Positions 18,697 through 26,870 of a DNA stretch of 45,677 bases are shown in pieces. Numbering within the stretch: the first letter of the stretch is position 1; every line of letters starts with the position of its first letter. Both the position numbers and the translations under genes were made by a program. The notes beneath the pieces are model-generated. The model did no database searches. It was not told the origin of the DNA and was given only the letters and a program-made list of their open reading frames with translations. Source of the stretch: Myxococcales bacterium (GTDB lineage: Bacteria; Lernaellota; Lernaellaia; Lernaellales; Lernaellaceae); NCBI GenBank assembly GCA_012517325.1, contig JAAYVF010000098.1:1-45677 (forward strand). Reading direction: 5' to 3'.

Positions 18697-20555
18697 AAAT
18701 CCTTTACCTCGATCAATATTTTTCCACCCGCGAAGGGATCAGCGGTACGCGCGCCTACGAATTCGCCCGCCGGTGGGTCGCGCAGGGGCACCGGGTGACG
18801 GTTCTCACCAGCGCCAGCCGGTACAGCGATCTCGATGGCCGGGCCCAACAGCGTCTCGTCGAACGCCGCGACATCGAAGGCATCCGCGTATTGTGCATCC
18901 GCTCCTATTACTCCCAGCAAATGAGCCGCGCGGCCCGCTTGCGCGCGTTTTTCCACTACATGATCTGGGCGGCGTTGATCGGCATTCAGCTTTCCCGCCA
19001 CGACGTCGTGTTCGCCAGTTCGACGCCGCTGACCATCGGCGTGCCGGCGGTCTGGATCAGCCGCTGGCGCGGCACGCCCTTCGTTTTCGAGGTGCGCGAT
19101 CTTTGGCCGCAGGCGCCGATCGAAATGGGCTTTTTGCGTAATCCGCTGGCGATCGCCGTCGCGCGCCTCGCCGAACGGCTTTTCTACCGGCTGGCGGCGC
19201 GAATCGTCACGCTCAGCCCCGGCATGACCGACGGCGTGGTCCGGGCCGGCGTGTCCGCCGGGAAAATCGTCATGGTCCCCAACGCCTGCGACCCGGATTT
19301 GTTCGGCGCCGCCGATCCGGCCGGGGTGCGCGAAAAACTCGGCGTCGCGCCGGACGAGATACTGATCATCCACGCGGGCAACCTCGGGCCGTCCAACGAC
19401 GGCGACTGGTTGCTGAACCTGGCCGGCGCGCTGGCGCGGACCGAGGCGCGCTATCGCATTCTGCTGCTGGGCGAAGGCAGCGAACGCGAACGCCTGGAAC
19501 GACGCGCCGCCGAGGAAGGCATCACGAACATCCTGTTCGCCGGGCCCGTCAGCCGTCGCGAAACGGCGCCGTATCTGCACGCCGCCGACTGGGGCATCGT
19601 CTCCTTCGCCGACAAGCCGGTACTGGCCACCAACAGCCCGAACAAGTTTTTCGATTACCTCGCCGCCGGGCTGCCCGTGCTGGTCAATACTCCCGGCTGG
19701 ACCGCCGCGCTCTTGCAGGAAGGCGGCGCCGGTCTCGCCCTGCCGCGCGAAATTAAAAAAGCCGCCGGGCTCGTCGCCGCGACCGACCGCGAGGGCACGC
19801 GCCGCGCCGCCATGGCCGCCGCCGCCCGCCGGTTGTCGTCGCGGTTCGCGCGCGACGAACTGGCCGGCACGGTTTTACATACGCTGCGCGACGTCCGCGA
19901 CCAGCGCCCGTTCGCCCTGGAGCCGCTGTTGAAGCGGGCAACCGACCTGCTGCTGGCCGGCGCGGCAACGGTGGTGCTTTCGCCGTTTCTGCTCGCCGTC
20001 GCCGTCGCGATCAAATGGGATTCGCCGGGGCCGGTCTTCTTCCGGCAGGATCGCATCGGGCGGGACGGCCGGCGGTTCCGGTTGTGGAAATTCCGGACCA
20101 TGGTCGAGGACGCAGCGTCCCTGGGCGACGGGCTCAACGTCGGCGCGCACGATTCGCGGATCACCCGGGTCGGCCGCTTTCTGCGCGAGTGGTCGCTCGA
20201 CGAGCTGCCGCAACTGTTCAACATGATCCGGGGCGACATGGCGATCGTCGGCCCCCGGCCCGCGCTGGCGGAACACGTCGCGCAGTACGACGAGACACAA
20301 CGGGAACGCTTGCGCGTACGCCCGGGGCTGACGGGACTGGCCCAGATCAACGGCCGCAACGCCCTGACCTGGGCCGAAAAACTGGCCTTCGACGTGCGCT
20401 ACGCCCGCGCCTGGTCGTACCTCGGCGATTGGCGCATTATTTTAAAAACCATTCCGGTGGTGCTGCGGCGCGAGGGTTTGTACGAAACCGACGCCGGCAA
20501 GCAGGACCGGTTCAACCGGTTTGACGATGGCGACGATCGAACTACTCGGCCTTGA
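18693..20555 (+). CDS. Bifunctional glycosyltransferase-phosphoglycosyl transferase fusion
   Basis: A 620-residue fusion. Residues 1 to about 405 are a WbuB-like GT4 enzyme (KILYLDQYFSTREGISGTR, EVRDLWPQAPIEMGFL, SPNKFFDYLAAGLPVLVN). Residues about 420-600 are a monotopic bacterial sugar transferase: re-entrant hydrophobic helix TDLLLAGAATVVLSPFLLA, WDSPGPVFFRQDRIG, LWKFRTM, the catalytic Asp-Glu dyad in SLDELPQLFNMIRGDM, VGPRPA and RPGLTGLAQINGRN. The C-terminal half would transfer a sugar-1-phosphate to undecaprenyl phosphate and the N-terminal half could add the next sugar. There is no stop or frameshift between them. It overlaps its neighbours at both ends. Sugar identities are unknown. 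Confidence 0.93.
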   Translation: MKILYLDQYFSTREGISGTRAYEFARRWVAQGHRVTVLTSASRYSDLDGRAQQRLVERRDIEGIRVLCIRSYYSQQMSRAARLRAFFHYMIWAALIGIQLSRHDVVFASSTPLTIGVPAVWISRWRGTPFVFEVRDLWPQAPIEMGFLRNPLAIAVARLAERLFYRLAARIVTLSPGMTDGVVRAGVSAGKIVMVPNACDPDLFGAADPAGVREKLGVAPDEILIIHAGNLGPSNDGDWLLNLAGALARTEARYRILLLGEGSERERLERRAAEEGITNILFAGPVSRRETAPYLHAADWGIVSFADKPVLATNSPNKFFDYLAAGLPVLVNTPGWTAALLQEGGAGLALPREIKKAAGLVAATDREGTRRAAMAAAARRLSSRFARDELAGTVLHTLRDVRDQRPFALEPLLKRATDLLLAGAATVVLSPFLLAVAVAIKWDSPGPVFFRQDRIGRDGRRFRLWKFRTMVEDAASLGDGLNVGAHDSRITRVGRFLREWSLDELPQLFNMIRGDMAIVGPRPALAEHVAQYDETQRERLRVRPGLTGLAQINGRNALTWAEKLAFDVRYARAWSYLGDWRIILKTIPVVLRREGLYETDAGKQDRFNRFDDGDDRTTRP

Positions 20556-21564
20556 CCGGGCCGACCGCTGGCGAAGCCTGCTGGAAGAATCCGGCCTCGG
20601 GGACGTTTATCATCATCCGGGCTATTTGGCGGCGCTGGCGGCCAACGGCGACGGCGAACCGCGGCTGTTTTACTTCCGCGACGCCGGCTGCACGGCGCTG
20701 CACGTCGCCCTCTGGCGGCCGTTGAGCGCCCTGCCCTTCGCCCATCCCTACGCTGATCGCTTCGACGCCGTCTCACCTTACGGTTACGCCGGCCCGGTGA
20801 CCGACGCGCCGGCCAGGGCCGCCGATGTCTGGCGCGCCTGGGCCGAAACCGCCCGCGCCAACGGCCTCGTCGCCGAGTTCATCCGCTTTCATCCGTTGCT
20901 GCAAAACCACCGCGCGTTCGCCGATCAGATCGAGGTGCTCGCCGCCGGCCGCACGATCTGGATGGACCTGACCGCCCCGATCGAAACCGGCATTTCGAAG
21001 TCGCGGTTGCGCGACGCGCGCTGGGCGACGCGGGAAAACGTGCGGGTCGAGTCGTCCGCCCACGACCGCCTGCCGGCCTTTTTCGAAATGTACCAGGCGA
21101 CCATGCGGCGAAAGGGCGCCGAGGCGTACTATTTTTTCCCGTGGGAATATTTCGCCCGGCTGCGCGACGGGCTGGGCGGCGATTTCTGGCTGATGCGCGC
21201 CCATCGCGGCGATCGCGACTGCGCCTACGCCATCTGCCTGCGGCACCGCGACCGCCTGCACTACCACCTGAGCTGTTCGGACGAAGACCTGGCCCAGTAT
21301 CGCGCGGTCACGCAACTGCTGGTGGAAACGGCCCGGCTGGGCCGCGATGTCGGGCTGACTTCTTTCCACCTGGGCGGCGGCTACCGCGGCGAGGATTCGC
21401 TGTTTCAATTCAAGAGCCATTTTTCGCCCCACCAGGCGCCGTTTTTCGTCGGCCGCGCGCGGCATGACCCGGAGGCCATCGCGCACCTGGCCCGGTTGGC
21501 GGCGGCGGCGGGCCAGGCGGCGGTCGATCCGAACTTCTTTCCGCCCTACCGGAGCCGGCGATGA
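20527..21564 (+). CDS. FemAB/GNAT-like acyltransferase
   Basis: A 345-residue protein resembling the FemAB-like GNAT group (acetyltransferase 6 type). Supporting segments are DVYHHPGYLAALAAN near the N-terminus, LHYHLSCSDEDLAQYRA and GLTSFHLGGGYRGEDSLFQF, a pattern seen in aminoacyl/acyl transferases that sit in polysaccharide clusters. A likely role is N-acylation of an amino sugar or transfer of an amino acid, which would pair with the DegT aminotransferase two genes downstream. I prefer ATG 20527; a TTG at 20521 is an alternative, and neither has a strong ribosome site. It overlaps the end of the fusion gene and the next start. Confidence 0.8.
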   Translation: MATIELLGLDRADRWRSLLEESGLGDVYHHPGYLAALAANGDGEPRLFYFRDAGCTALHVALWRPLSALPFAHPYADRFDAVSPYGYAGPVTDAPARAADVWRAWAETARANGLVAEFIRFHPLLQNHRAFADQIEVLAAGRTIWMDLTAPIETGISKSRLRDARWATRENVRVESSAHDRLPAFFEMYQATMRRKGAEAYYFFPWEYFARLRDGLGGDFWLMRAHRGDRDCAYAICLRHRDRLHYHLSCSDEDLAQYRAVTQLLVETARLGRDVGLTSFHLGGGYRGEDSLFQFKSHFSPHQAPFFVGRARHDPEAIAHLARLAAAAGQAAVDPNFFPPYRSRR

Positions 21565-22298
21565 CGGGCGATATGCGCACCTTTTACGAGAACGAGGCGG
21601 AACGCCGCAAATGGGGCGAGGCGCTGGCGGGCGAAGGGCTGTTCCCGACCGAATTGCAACTGGTCCGCGAGGCGTTCGTTCCCGGCGGCCGGGTGCTGGA
21701 CGTCGGCTGCGGCGGCGGCCGCGAGGCGTTCGGCCTGGCGGCGCTGGGTTTTCAGGTCACCGCGGTGGATTACCTGCCGGCGTTCGTCGCGGCGTGCCGG
21801 CAAGGCGCCGCCGCGCGCGGTCTATCGCTGGACGTGCGGCAGGCCGACGCGGCGGAACTGCCGTTCGCGGACGGCGCGTTCGATCACGTGATGATGGTCG
21901 GGCAATTGCTCGGCCACGTGCGCCCGCGCGAACGGCGCCGGCAGGTGTTGCGGGAAATCGGCCGGGTGATGCGGCCCGGCACCGCGATCGTCTCGACCAA
22001 CGCCATTGAACGCCGTCGCTGGTACGGGGCATACTTTTGGCTGCTCAACGGCTGGCGCCGCGTTTACAATCCGCTGGGGCTCGAACCCGACGACGCCTTC
22101 GTGCGTCGCATCGGCGGCGAGAAGTCGGCCTCCGGCGAGCGGCCGCTGTTTCATTGGTATCGCACGCCGGAATTCCGGCGCGACGCCGCCGCGGCCGGCT
22201 GGCGCGTCGAGCGCTGGCTGCGCCGCTACGAGCAGGAGCGGGCCCTGGCCGACCCCTCGACCAGCGGCGAGACGTTTTACGTGCTACGAAAGGAATAA
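21561..22298 (+). CDS. SAM-dependent methyltransferase
   Basis: A 245-residue class I methyltransferase. Motif I is VLDVGCGGGREAFGLAALG (about 45-63), followed by the acidic VTAVDYLPAFV strand end and the ADAAELPFADGAFDHVMMVG motif region. The C-terminal third is basic and aromatic-rich, likely contributing acceptor binding. It is unrelated in layout to the small methyltransferase at 10006. The ATG overlaps the FemAB-like gene stop. It probably O- or N-methylates a sugar of the repeat unit or a terminal residue (inference from context). Confidence 0.88.
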   Translation: MTGDMRTFYENEAERRKWGEALAGEGLFPTELQLVREAFVPGGRVLDVGCGGGREAFGLAALGFQVTAVDYLPAFVAACRQGAAARGLSLDVRQADAAELPFADGAFDHVMMVGQLLGHVRPRERRRQVLREIGRVMRPGTAIVSTNAIERRRWYGAYFWLLNGWRRVYNPLGLEPDDAFVRRIGGEKSASGERPLFHWYRTPEFRRDAAAAGWRVERWLRRYEQERALADPSTSGETFYVLRKE

Positions 22299-22305
22299 TC
22301 CCTTG
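22290..22305 (+). promoter_or_regulatory. Ribosome site supporting a TTG start
   Basis: AAGGA at 22290-22294 lies 8 bases before TTG at 22303. No ATG or GTG occurs in frame between the upstream stop and conserved aminotransferase sequence, so the DegT-family gene very likely starts with TTG. Confidence 0.6.
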
Positions 22306-23424
22306 GACGAAAAATTCATCGATCTGGTTCAGCCTACTCTCGTACCGTGGGAAGAAGTCGAGCCGCTGTTCGCCGCGGTTTGGCGCAGCGGGCGGCTGAC
22401 GGTCGGGCCGCATACCGAAAAATTCGAACGCGCCGCGTCGGCCCTGATGGGCGTCGAGCACGCTGTGGCGCTCAACAGTTGCACCAGCGGCCTGATGCTG
22501 GCCTACCGCGCGCTGGGGCTGACCGGCGAGGTCATCCTGCCCAGCTTCACCTGGACGAGCACCGGCCACGCGTTGATCTGGAACGGCCTGACGCCGGTTT
22601 TCGCCGATATCGAAGAAGGAACCTGCACCCTCGACCCGCGCGACGTCGAACGCCGGATCACTCCGGCGACCAGCGCGATCATCGCCACCAACGTCTTCGG
22701 CCTTTACCCGGACCTTGATGCCCTGCAACGCGTGGCGGATGCGGCCGGCGTCGTTCTGCTGTGCGACAGCGCGCAAGCCATCGGCGCCACTTATAAGGGA
22801 CGCCGGGGCGGCGGGCTGTGCCGCGCGGAGATTTTTTCGTTTTCGCCGACCAAGGTGGTGACCGCCGTCGAGGGCGGCCTGCTGACCACCAACGACGCGG
22901 AACTCGCCCGCAAGGTGCGCCGGATGCGCGACTACGGCAAAACCGCCGACGGCAGCGACATCGAAAGTTTCGGCCTCTCGGCCCGGATCAGCGAATTTCA
23001 CAGCATCGTCGGCCTGGCCAATCTGGAGCGGATCGAGACCCTGCTCGCCGCGCGCGAGAAGCTGGTGGCCGCGTATCGGGCCGCCCTCGCCGACGTGCCG
23101 GGCCTGACGTTCCAGACCCTTCCCGCCGCTTGCCGCTCGAGCCACAACTACTTCGTCACCTTCCTCGACGCGCGGCAATACGACCGCGACGAGGTCTGGA
23201 ACGGCATGACCGATGCCAAGGTACACACCAAGCGGTACTTCTATCCGCCGTTGCATTGGCAGGCGGCCTATCACGGGTTCCCGCCGCCATCGCCGCCGCT
23301 GACCGTCACGGAACGCGTCTCCGTCAGCGCCCTGGCCCTGCCCCTGTTCTCGCACCTGACCGCCGCCGACGTGGCGGAGGTTTGCGAGCGCTACAAGCAA
23401 GTGCTGCGCGCCGCGAAAAAATAG
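22303..23424 (+). CDS. DegT/DnrJ/EryC1-family aminotransferase
   Basis: A PLP-dependent sugar aminotransferase of 373 residues, which converts a nucleotide-linked keto sugar to an amino sugar. Family landmarks are VALNSCTSGLMLAYRALGL, ILPSFTWTSTGHALIWNG, LLCDSAQAIGATYKG and the PLP-lysine segment FSFSPTKVVTAVEGG, in which the Lys after Ser-Pro-Thr forms the internal aldimine. SSHNYFVTF and KRYFYPPLH match the C-terminal domain. The gene starts with TTG and is the last member of the polysaccharide operon; the next gene has its own promoter-like sequence. Together with the FemAB-like protein it suggests an N-acylated amino sugar in the glycan. Confidence 0.93.
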   Translation: MDEKFIDLVQPTLVPWEEVEPLFAAVWRSGRLTVGPHTEKFERAASALMGVEHAVALNSCTSGLMLAYRALGLTGEVILPSFTWTSTGHALIWNGLTPVFADIEEGTCTLDPRDVERRITPATSAIIATNVFGLYPDLDALQRVADAAGVVLLCDSAQAIGATYKGRRGGGLCRAEIFSFSPTKVVTAVEGGLLTTNDAELARKVRRMRDYGKTADGSDIESFGLSARISEFHSIVGLANLERIETLLAAREKLVAAYRAALADVPGLTFQTLPAACRSSHNYFVTFLDARQYDRDEVWNGMTDAKVHTKRYFYPPLHWQAAYHGFPPPSPPLTVTERVSVSALALPLFSHLTAADVAEVCERYKQVLRAAKK

Positions 23425-23465: not shown

Positions 23466-23488
23466 GATCCTTGGGAGGAGCCGAGGAT

Positions 23489-23962
23489 ATGGTGAATCTC
23501 ATCGATTTGGTCCGCCGACAGTGCATCTACCTCGACCTGGTCGCGGCCGACCAGAATCAAGCGCTGGCCGCCGTCACGCGACGGATGGTCGCCGGCGGCG
23601 TGCTGTCGGCCGCCGACCAACCGGAACTGTTGCGCCGGCTGACGGAACGCGAATCGTTGTGCTCCACCGCGGTCGGACACGGCGCGGCGATTCCGCACTG
23701 CTACTACGACAAACTGACCACGCCGCTGATCGTCATCGGCCGGTTGTCGTCGCCGATCCACTATTGCAGCCCCGACGAGCGGCAGGTCGATTTGATCTTT
23801 TTGCTGCTGGGGCCCGAACGCGTTCCCGCGATGCACATCCAGATTCTAAGCCGGATCGTCCGCCTGCTGAAGGACGAACGCTTCGACGAGGAATTGCGCC
23901 GCGCCGACAGCCCGGAAGCCGTGTTGGCGGCCTTGCGGGAAGTGGAGAGCCGCCATCACTGA
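23489..23962 (+). CDS. PtsN-like PTS EIIA domain protein
   Basis: A 157-residue single-domain EIIA of the nitrogen/fructose type. The phospho-acceptor His70 lies in VGHGAAIPHCYYDKL, matching the family G-x-A-I-P-H motif; DLIFLLLGPERVPAMHIQIL and IVRLLKDERFDEELR are also typical. EIIA-Ntr proteins take phosphate from PEP via EI-Ntr and NPr and regulate partners, including K+ systems in E. coli. No EIIB/EIIC permease is near, so a regulatory role is likely. GGGAGGAG (23473-23480) sits 8 bases before ATG 23489; an earlier TTG at 23471 lies in that ribosome site and is rejected. It leads a four-gene cassette with a PII-like protein and two antiporters. Confidence 0.9.
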   Translation: MVNLIDLVRRQCIYLDLVAADQNQALAAVTRRMVAGGVLSAADQPELLRRLTERESLCSTAVGHGAAIPHCYYDKLTTPLIVIGRLSSPIHYCSPDERQVDLIFLLLGPERVPAMHIQILSRIVRLLKDERFDEELRRADSPEAVLAALREVESRHH

Positions 23963-23990
23963 AGCACGCGCCGGCAAGCATTGCCTGATC

Positions 23991-24314
23991 ATGGTCATCA
24001 ACGACCAGCAGATGGTGTACGACGTCCTCGCGGCGCTGATGGAGGCGGGCATCACCACCGCGACGCTTATCGAAAGCCAGGGCATGGGCAAAATCGTCGC
24101 CGAACAGATGCCGATCTTCGCCGGGTTCCGCAATCTATGGGGCGGCGGCAGCGCTTACAGCACCACCGTTTTCACGGTGGTCGACGACGCGCGACTGCCC
24201 GAAGCCGCGGAACTCGTGCGGACCGTGATGTTCGAGGAAGCCGAAAAACCGGGCGGCGTATTTTTTACTTTGCCGGTCGATCATTTTTATGCCCGTCCCG
24301 CGTCCGACAAATAG
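23991..24314 (+). CDS. PII-like signalling protein
   Basis: A small protein of 107 residues from ATG 23991, resembling the PII/GlnB-like fold: a first strand, helix DQQMVYDVLAALMEAGI, strand TTATLIESQGMGK, a loop region, strand TTVFTVVDDARL and helix PEAAELVRTVMFE. It is too divergent for the PII signature and lacks an obvious uridylylation Tyr in a T-loop. The open frame runs upstream without another ATG, GTG or TTG back into the EIIA gene; sequence encoding KHCLI just before ATG 23991 looks like the missing start of the first strand. A non-standard start (CTG 23985 or ATC 23955) is possible. Its position between EIIA and antiporter genes suggests control of transport. Confidence 0.65.
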   Translation: MVINDQQMVYDVLAALMEAGITTATLIESQGMGKIVAEQMPIFAGFRNLWGGGSAYSTTVFTVVDDARLPEAAELVRTVMFEEAEKPGGVFFTLPVDHFYARPASDK

Positions 24315-24348
24315 CCCCCGCTTCCGCCGCACCGCCGAGGAGTGAAAC

Positions 24349-25572
24349 GTGCGCCTGATCGCCGCCCTGCTTTTTCTGGGCCTGCTGACCCTGATCGGTT
24401 CGCGGTTCGCGACGCGCCGCTGGACGCCGCCCCGGTGGATCAAGCAATTCTTCGACTCGGGCCTGGCGTTCGTCTTTCTCGGTCTGACCGTCGGCCCGGC
24501 CGGCCTGAGCATCCTCGACGAAGCGGTCCTCGAACAACTGCGGCCGATCGTGCTGATCTGCCTGGGCTGGATCGGCTTTCTGTTCGGCATCCACCTCGAA
24601 GGCAAACGACTGGTGCGGATTCCGGCCCGTCTGTGGCTGGTCATTCTCGGCGAATCGTCGCTGACCCTGCTGCTGGTGCTGACGGCGATGTTCCTTTTCT
24701 TTATCCCGACGTTTATTCACGAATCCTTTTACGACCAACGGTGGCCCGCGCTGCTGACCATAGCGGTTTGTGCGGCGGGCACCGCGCCGGGAGCCGTCTT
24801 TCTGTTCACTTCGCGCCCCGGATTTCCCCGCCCGCTCGGCCGGGCCCTGCGCCTCGTCGCCACCCTGGACGATCTTCCCGGCCTGTTGGTTTTCGGCCTG
24901 CTCTTCGCCTGGTGGCCAACCCGGCCGCTCGGCCCGTTCGAAACGGCCGCCGGATTACTCTGGACGCTGCTTTACCTGCCGCTCGGTCTGTTGTTGGGTT
25001 TTCTGTTGAAAAGCACGGCCGCGCTCGCGCGCCGGGAACAGACCCATTTTCTCGCCGTGCTGGGAACGATCGCCTTCGGCGCCGGACTGGCGGCGCGGCT
25101 GCAACTCTCGCCGCTCGTGCTGGGCGCGGTCGCCGGCGCCGCCTTCGCCAATACGGCCGGCAAGAAAGAAGCGATTTACGCGTTGCTGGTCAGGTCGGAA
25201 CATCCGATCTTCGTGCTGTTCATGATCCTGGTCGGTTGCCAGTGGACTTTTGCATCCGGCCATCTGATCGGCCTGACGGCGCTGTACCTGACGGCGCGCC
25301 TGCTCGGCAAGGCGCTCGGCGGCGCGGGTGTCGCGTGGGTCATGGCCGCCCCCGAACGGCGGTATTACCTCAGCGGCCTGGGGTTGCTCGGCCAGGGCGG
25401 CATGGCCGTCGCGATGGCGATCGATTACGCCCGCGCCTATCCCTCGGCGATTTCGGCGACCCTCGTCACGGTACTGTTGCTCGGCGTTCTGGGCAACGAG
25501 CTTTTCGCGTCGCTCGCGACGCTCTTGCCGTTCGGCCGCCAGTCGGATGCTGAAGCGCGGAGCCGTCGATGA
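24349..25572 (+). CDS. CPA-type cation/proton antiporter with Asp-Asp core
   Basis: A 407-residue membrane protein with about 12 hydrophobic segments, of the monovalent cation:proton antiporter (CPA2-like, Na+/H+ exchanger) superfamily. The core motif of the ion-binding unwound helix is ATLDDLPGL with Asp174-Asp175, preceded by the conserved CAAGTAPGAV segment. GQGGMAVAMAIDYARAYP near the C-terminus fits the second crossing-helix region. There is no TrkA-N or other cytoplasmic domain, so regulation may come from the co-encoded PII-like and EIIA proteins. The start is GTG at 24349 with GAGGAG (24337-24342) upstream. The stop overlaps the start of the second antiporter. Confidence 0.85.
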   Translation: MRLIAALLFLGLLTLIGSRFATRRWTPPRWIKQFFDSGLAFVFLGLTVGPAGLSILDEAVLEQLRPIVLICLGWIGFLFGIHLEGKRLVRIPARLWLVILGESSLTLLLVLTAMFLFFIPTFIHESFYDQRWPALLTIAVCAAGTAPGAVFLFTSRPGFPRPLGRALRLVATLDDLPGLLVFGLLFAWWPTRPLGPFETAAGLLWTLLYLPLGLLLGFLLKSTAALARREQTHFLAVLGTIAFGAGLAARLQLSPLVLGAVAGAAFANTAGKKEAIYALLVRSEHPIFVLFMILVGCQWTFASGHLIGLTALYLTARLLGKALGGAGVAWVMAAPERRYYLSGLGLLGQGGMAVAMAIDYARAYPSAISATLVTVLLLGVLGNELFASLATLLPFGRQSDAEARSRR

Positions 25573-26870
25573 ACGTCGCCGTCCTGCTCGTCCTGCTCTT
25601 TCTGGGTTGGTTCCTCAACCTGATGGCCGCCCGGACACCCGCCGGTTACGGCGATCAGGCCGTGCTGGTGCTCGGTTTCGTCCTGCTCGGCGCCGCCGCC
25701 GTCGGGCGGTTGGTGCGCCGTGGCCGCCTGCCGATGATCACCGGTTACCTGCTGGCGGGCCTGGCGTTCGGTCCGCACCTCGCCGGCCGACTTTCGCCGC
25801 AGCTCACTCTTTTCACCCCCGAGGTTTTGCAGCAACTGCGGCTGATCGACGACCTGGCTTTGGGTTTGATCGCCTTTACCGCCGGCGGCGAGTTGAAAAT
25901 GGCGACGCTACGGCCCCGCCTGCGCGCCATCCTGGCCGTGTCCGGCGTCCAGGTTCCTGTCGTCACGCTGGGGGTCGGTCTGGTCGCGTTCGCCCTGGGG
26001 CCGCACCTTTCCTTCCTGGCCGGAAAGCCGCCGACATTCTGGCTGGCCGCCGCGATGGTGCTGGGCATTACGGCGCTGGCGCCCTCGCCTGCCACGACGA
26101 TCGCCGTCATCAACGAAAGCGAGGCGCGCGGGCCGTTCGCCACGGTGGCGATGGGCACCACCGTCACCAACGACGTGCTAAGCCTGCTGCTTTTTTCGGG
26201 CAGCCTGATGTTCGTCAACAAACTGTTGCAGCCGGAAACCGCGGTTGACCTGGCCATGCTCGGACTGGTGGTCTGGGAAGTGCTCGGTTCGCTGATCGCC
26301 GGCCTGCTCTTGGGTTTGGCCCTGCGCGGGTACATCCGCCACATCGGCCGCGAGTTGCCGCTGTTGATCCTGACGCTGGCTTTCGTTTCGATGCAGGCGG
26401 CCGCGGCGCTGCACCTGTCGGGCATCCTGGTCTGTCTGGCCGCCGGGTTTTACGTGGAAAACTTCACCGATCACGGCGAGGCGATGATCGCGGCGGTGGA
26501 CCGCTACAGCCTGCCGGTATACATCGTTTTTTTCACGCTGGCCGGGGCGAAGATCAATCTGCCGGTTTTGCGGCAGATGTGGGCGGCGACCCTGATCCTG
26601 GTGCTGGCGCGCGGGGCGTTCCTCTTCGCCGGGGCCCGCCTGGGCAGCCGTCTGGGCCGGTCCGAGCCGACGGTCCGCCGGGAAATCTGGAAAGTGCTGG
26701 TCGGCCAGGCGGGAATTTCCCTCGGCCTGGCGATGATCGTCGGCCGAAGCGTTCCCGAAATCGGCCCGGCGCTGCAAACGCTGCTGGTCGCGCTCATCGC
26801 CGTCAACCAGTTGATCGGCCCCATCCTGCTGCGGCAGGCCCTGGCGCGCTCCGGCGAGGCGAAGCCTTAG
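25569..26870 (+). CDS. CPA-type cation/proton antiporter with Asn-Asp core
   Basis: A second antiporter of the same superfamily, 433 residues and about 12-13 transmembrane segments. The core is APSPATTIAVINES followed by GTTVTNDVLSLLLF with Asn201-Asp202, where the neighbour has Asp-Asp. GRLPMITGYLLAGLAFGPH (about 52-70) is the typical CPA2 first-repeat motif. In characterised antiporters Asp-Asp is often associated with electrogenic and Asn-Asp with electroneutral exchange, though exceptions are known. ATGA overlap with the upstream gene makes co-translation likely, and a two-subunit or paired-function system is possible. No soluble regulatory domain is attached. Confidence 0.86.
   Translation: MNVAVLLVLLFLGWFLNLMAARTPAGYGDQAVLVLGFVLLGAAAVGRLVRRGRLPMITGYLLAGLAFGPHLAGRLSPQLTLFTPEVLQQLRLIDDLALGLIAFTAGGELKMATLRPRLRAILAVSGVQVPVVTLGVGLVAFALGPHLSFLAGKPPTFWLAAAMVLGITALAPSPATTIAVINESEARGPFATVAMGTTVTNDVLSLLLFSGSLMFVNKLLQPETAVDLAMLGLVVWEVLGSLIAGLLLGLALRGYIRHIGRELPLLILTLAFVSMQAAAALHLSGILVCLAAGFYVENFTDHGEAMIAAVDRYSLPVYIVFFTLAGAKINLPVLRQMWAATLILVLARGAFLFAGARLGSRLGRSEPTVRREIWKVLVGQAGISLGLAMIVGRSVPEIGPALQTLLVALIAVNQLIGPILLRQALARSGEAKP

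Follow-up and report, generated by a model that had tools for sequence, protein, structure and literature searches.

What role do two small signalling genes play when they stand directly upstream of two antiporter genes? This question is raised by a 45,677-nt stretch of DNA, hereafter called the window (contig JAAYVF010000098.1, assembly GCA_012517325.1, forward strand; all positions in window numbering), for which an earlier note had proposed an ion/pH transporter gated by PEP status and by a PII-type ligand. The cassette lies on the plus strand in the order EIIA, PII-like, AP1, AP2, and the presence of all four gene types was confirmed, each product scoring above its Pfam cut-off. Its features are:

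23473-23479: GGGAGGA, a Shine-Dalgarno-like motif before the EIIA gene.
23489..23962, plus strand: EIIA protein (PTS_EIIA_2) of 157 aa (PF00359, 98.8 bits).
23696..23698, plus strand: codon for His70 of EIIA, the predicted phosphorylation site (AIPHCY); His in 118/121 EIIA neighbours.
23985..24314, plus strand: PII-like protein of ~109 aa, start uncertain (PF00543, AlphaFold2, Foldseek).
24108..24131, plus strand: MPIFAGFR, family motif of the PII-like protein at the PII T-loop position (alignment A4).
24349..25572, plus strand: AP1, an antiporter of the CPA superfamily, 407 aa, without a C-terminal regulatory domain (PF00999; profile aligned to NapA 5bz2).
24868..24873, plus strand: Asp174-Asp175 of AP1, equivalent to NapA Asp156-Asp157.
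25569..26870, plus strand: AP2, an antiporter of the CPA superfamily, 433 aa (PF00999, 98.9 bits).
26169..26174, plus strand: Asn201-Asp202 of AP2; Asp202 is invariant in 15/15 AP2 proteins.
25569-25572: ATGA, a 4-base overlap of the AP1 stop with the AP2 start.

The EIIA protein clearly exceeded the Pfam cut-off of its family (27 bits) and matched the PtsN structures 3urr/4gqx in a phmmer search (~6e-14). Its NCBIfam scores for fruA (76.8 bits, cut-off 103.5) and PtsN (76.0 bits, cut-off 138.7) both fell below threshold and were about equal, so that the two types, Ntr and fructose, are not separable by score; the previously used label EIIA-Ntr-like is thus not specific, and an EIIA-Ntr in the strict sense is not supported. 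The description as a phospho-His EIIA stood, the predicted site His70 being present in an IPH motif. The site could be read in 121 EIIA neighbours, of which only three lacked the phosphorylatable histidine, carrying Asn (G224), Gln (L150) or Tyr (L163) instead.

The PII-like protein scored 29.7-30 bits against P-II (PF00543, cut-off 25; frame 23955-24314). Its start may be CTG 23985 or ATG 23991, with the open frame extending to 23955 and beyond; a start at ATG 23991 would truncate the first strand of the protein, while in the relative L012 the codon corresponding to CTG 23985 is ATG, and in L013 an ATG stands three codons further upstream. An AlphaFold2 model displayed the PII arrangement (pLDDT 87.6, pTM 0.74), and the best 50 Foldseek matches in the PDB were all PII/GlnK proteins with TM of about 0.6-0.67, the best being GlnZ 4co0 (E 2.7e-5, probability 1.00) and the rest weaker. 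The family profile likewise retrieved PII sequences from the PDB; ribosomal protein matches, the only ones returned by a single-sequence phmmer search, were discarded as noise. By sequence profile and by its beta-alpha-beta repeat fold, the protein is a member of the PII superfamily. Gln39 and Lys90 bind ligand in GlnB. In alignment A4, the former position is occupied by I/F/V/L (Gln kept in 0/56) and the latter by I/L/V (Lys kept in 2/56), which makes canonical ligand binding doubtful; the proposed PII-type ligand, if meant canonically, therefore found no support. At the T-loop position the family shares a new motif, [DE][IV]P[IL]FAG[LF][RK], with P in 56/56, F in 55/56 and A in 55/56 sequences. 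No NCBIfam model covered the window protein, and the cassette provides this subfamily, which has no model of its own there, with a putative function and a genetic handle.

Both antiporters belong to the Na_H_Exchanger family (PF00999, cut-off 26.2 bits), AP1 with 40.9 bits and AP2 with 98.9 bits, and as this was the sole Pfam domain on either protein, the claim of overlapping antiporters without a regulatory domain was borne out. Positions were assigned by alignment to NapA, whose ion-binding Asp157 has a counterpart in both window antiporters. In AP2 this aspartate occurred in 15/15 tandem pairs, preceded by N, K, G, S or M. In AP1, by contrast, it was kept in just 4/15 aligned proteins, all four from the window's class, and lost in 11/15; outside that class we read Asp-Gly, Asp-Ala, Asp-Pro, Asp-Leu, Asp-Asn, Arg-Ser or Asn-Asn. 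Judged by alignment, AP1 and AP2 are hence asymmetric rather than equivalent, a point absent from the earlier note. Single antiporters adjoining an EIIA/PII-like pair mostly retained Asp-Asp. Lone AP1-type genes in Gemmatimonadota, which carry Asp-Ala, make it less likely that AP1 is a silent partner of AP2 in every case.

A search for the four-gene order across genomes revealed that it is not unique to the window's genome (G000) but recurs in three relatives (G001, G002 and G006), all of the window's class, so that the uniqueness named as a refutation in the earlier note did not apply. In G006 the cassette EIIA is split over two frames (L014:9066-9577; G006:C23:665128-665558), either by an assembly frameshift or in a broken gene. 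G004 and G005, of the same class, lacked the PII-like gene and the cassette; the absence of the cassette from G003 was rejected as evidence, since the contig ends inside AP1.

For a broader view, a profile of ten PII-like proteins was run against 386 genomes, 68 of which contained the family. We mapped the surroundings of nearly all PII-like places found (70 loci) and counted partners within 3 kb on the same strand by profiles made for this analysis. EIIA was present in 47/70 loci, an antiporter in 49/70, both in 39/70 and neither in 13/70; loci of related genomes are not independent, but many families are represented in the sample. ORFs taken as controls at a distance of five genes yielded CPA in 1/65 and EIIA in 0/65 cases, and canonical PII loci showed EIIA/antiporter linkage within 1.5 kb in 0/24. 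Among 47 other neighbours of PII-like loci examined with Pfam, no family appeared more than three times, and there was no other recurrent partner. The genes might in principle have unrelated roles and have come together by chance among densely packed genes for polysaccharides and housekeeping functions, and indeed all of them lie on one strand of a dense stretch. Linkage kept across many families and phyla, together with the negative controls, refutes this explanation, to which we assign a very low probability. A scan of IMG/VR for the PII-like protein returned a single weak locus.

Gene fusions and co-occurrence pointed in the same direction. EIIA and the PII-like protein were fused in 11/70 loci (the EIIA half of the L019 fusion was also checked with Pfam), and two genomes of the window's class encode CPA-EIIA fusions, of 619 aa in G005 and of 571 aa in G006. 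At E<1e-80, antiporters of the AP1 type occurred in 15 genomes, 15/15 of them positive for the PII-like protein compared with 68/386 overall (Fisher p 1.2e-12); after removal of the genomes used for profile training, the count was 7/7 (p 1.9e-6), both p values being approximate owing to phylogenetic non-independence. AP2 at E<1e-100 occurred in 22 genomes, 17/22 of them PII-like positive. In several AP1-positive genomes, AP1 and the PII-like gene lay on different contigs. Conservation, fusions and the phylogenetic profile strongly support a single functional cassette of four genes, in which EIIA and the PII-like protein would act as antiporter regulators. As a whole, the earlier reading was thus supported for the regulatory cassette, but not for a canonical PII ligand or a strict EIIA-Ntr, given the family residues and NCBIfam scores described above.

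A GTDB genome scan with the tighter PII-like alignment A3 gave 80 loci, with lineage names as in the record titles. EIIA stood beside 68 of these and an antiporter beside 43 (23 CPA, 20 Mrp). Gemmatimonadota exhibited the order EIIA-PII-CPA and Aminicenantia mostly CPA-CPA-EIIA-PII, while PII-EIIA headed Mrp operons in Spirochaetota, Aerophobota, one Chitinispirillum and one deltaproteobacterial record. For instance, the subunits in L141, identified by Pfam, follow as PII-EIIA-MnhE-MrpF-MnhG and then MnhB-MrpC-MrpD. Mrp is an antiporter type unrelated to CPA, and recurrence with two unrelated families points to the regulators, not the pump, as the conserved core. Since the pair stands beside sodium or potassium/proton pumps across many bacterial lineages that are not related to one another, salt and pH balance may be tied to the energy status of the cell by a widespread mechanism that has no name as yet.

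In all 15 loci of Calditrichota, EIIA-PII occurred without an adjacent antiporter. A gene of ~490 aa following the pair there was considered as an antiporter and rejected: it encodes a Ser/Thr kinase, and other neighbours encode HisS. Two records (L121:5492-7824 and L120:4152-6458, from Calditrichia and Caldisericaceae) have a Ser/Thr kinase with a PEGA domain after EIIA-PII; in other records it is HisS. Pairs without an adjacent antiporter and the 13/70 loci without either partner indicate that antiporters may not be the sole targets. This leads to the alternative that EIIA and the PII-like protein make up a signalling pair of general use that acts on several targets, adjacency to antiporters reflecting a shared need under pH or energy stress instead of direct gating. 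Such a pair would account for the loci without an adjacent antiporter in Calditrichota, KSB1, Caldisericota, Cloacimonadota and Deferribacteres; however, genomes with unlinked pairs often encode AP1/AP2-type antiporters elsewhere (antiporter genes were seen at a distance from the EIIA-PII pair, or from the PII-like gene, in G079, G198, G220, G246, G337, G349 and G360), two unrelated antiporter superfamilies recur beside the pair, and EIIA-CPA fusions exist. We therefore regard this alternative as unlikely.

Less probable still is that EIIA alone regulates the antiporter, as PtsN does for YcgO, with the PII-like protein modulating EIIA or its phosphorylation. EIIA-PII fusions, the tight pairing in both gene orders and EIIA-CPA fusions without PII would all be in line with such an arrangement. 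It is opposed by about ten loci in which a PII-like gene accompanies CPA and EIIA was not called alongside (one of them has a split EIIA), and by the way in which PII-family proteins generally act, namely by direct target binding.

We favour the assumption, at a probability of roughly two in three, that the cassette exemplifies a widespread regulatory module with two inputs, whose targets are monovalent cation/proton antiporters. EI and HPr would phosphorylate EIIA on His70, which would make EIIA a reporter of the cell's PEP state. Like other PII proteins, the PII-like protein is presumably a trimer; it would bind a small ligand, probably other than the canonical ATP/2-oxoglutarate pair. Both proteins would act together on the membrane part of the antiporters, probably as one complex because they are fused in about one sixth of the sampled loci. 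In the likeliest scheme, the AP1/AP2 pair would be kept shut by unphosphorylated EIIA acting with the PII-like protein in one of its ligand states, and would be released by phosphorylation or by an exchange of ligand. Counting against the module are the loci where the pair has no antiporter beside it, the three EIIA sites without histidine, the absence from AP1 and AP2 of a CorC domain such as the one through which YcgO is bound, and the lack of the cassette in G004 and G005. We infer the physical binding, the direction of control, the ligand and the transported ion from what is directly observed, namely gene identities, conserved linkage, fusions, active-site conservation and co-occurrence.

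The first of the two inputs was followed through the phosphorelay. HPr was found in 28/30 genomes tested and EI in 29/30; in the window's genome the two are grouped on C97, where there is also a second EIIA in the vicinity. PTS_EIIC (PF02378, the sole EIIC family searched) was found in none of 15 genomes including the window's, so that the PTS there looks regulatory. Gating by PEP status would be consistent with the conserved histidine and with the finding of both EI and HPr. Among the three loci without the histidine, the check for EI and HPr covered G224, whose cassette EIIA reads GIPN in place of AIPH; in this genome, a single case of 86% completeness, HPr, EI and EIIC were all undetected, a pattern one would expect if the phosphorelay had been lost and the site had drifted.

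A more specific version holds that EIIA and the ligand-altered PII-like protein jointly gate heteromeric antiporters, in which AP2 would be catalytic and AP1, a paralogue without the ion-binding aspartate in many lineages, would serve for docking or sensing, the pair being attached to Mrp as well, in a new, broadly distributed system. Taken as one joint claim, this version is tentative, with the odds rather against it. Should the two-input module be correct, homeostasis of sodium, potassium and pH would be linked to PEP status and to a second ligand in many phyla that have received little study, and dual control of antiporters becomes open to direct tests.

The individual elements have precedents. 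In E. coli, YcgO, a CPA1 antiporter, is inhibited when unphosphorylated PtsN binds to its CorC domain (PMC11808508). That system resembles the cassette in its EIIA_2-family protein with a conserved histidine, its CPA antiporter target and its regulatory, not sugar-transporting, PTS branch. It differs in that control is mediated by RCK and CorC domains of YcgO, which are missing from AP1 and AP2 (PF00999 only, by Pfam), and in the absence of a PII-like partner. In GlnK-AmtB and SbtB-SbtA, a small PII-fold protein is likewise encoded beside a membrane transporter on which it is presumed to act, but the transporters are others, and the cassette protein has Gln39 and Lys90 replaced and an EIIA partner. 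PII genes also stand at the end of YbcC/NuoL-type operons (COGNAT, PMC5700660), again a PII-family gene in the operon of a cation-linked membrane complex; here the protein is a COG0347 PII, EIIA is not mentioned and the complex is a different one. LacS carries a fused EIIA domain which, phosphorylated by HPr, sets transporter activity (reviewed in PMC10710835), although it is a sugar transporter with EIIA of the Glc type. A CPA antiporter controlled by EIIA and transporters controlled by PII-like proteins are thus each known; for EIIA, PII-like protein and antiporter together we found no report in the open-access papers searched, subscription papers and preprints lying outside the search, and the closest finding was the PII gene of the YbcC/NuoL operons.

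Several further arrangements were observed. In G005 (C144; L204:1462-2979), a protein that looks CorC/HlyC-like when read by eye carries a C-terminal EIIA domain; CorC is the domain type through which YcgO binds PtsN in E. coli. Directly upstream of the window's cassette (20521-23424) lie a FemAB/GNAT-like gene, a methyltransferase gene and a DegT-type aminotransferase gene, which resemble the end of a polysaccharide locus; a DegT-like gene adjoins the cassette in G001 and G002 too. On the Subdoligranulum variabile plasmid OY725837.1 (Clostridia; L254, 3839-5544), a PII-like gene is immediately followed by a CPA antiporter gene, with EIIA not detected nearby. Locus L067 (G213:C74) contains two PII-CPA units side by side in opposite orientation, with one EIIA detected between them. 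Finally, in a 9-Mb genome (L241, G034:C46, 3999-6902), a very diverged PII-like gene lies immediately upstream of a region in which a match to AP1 is followed by one to AP2.
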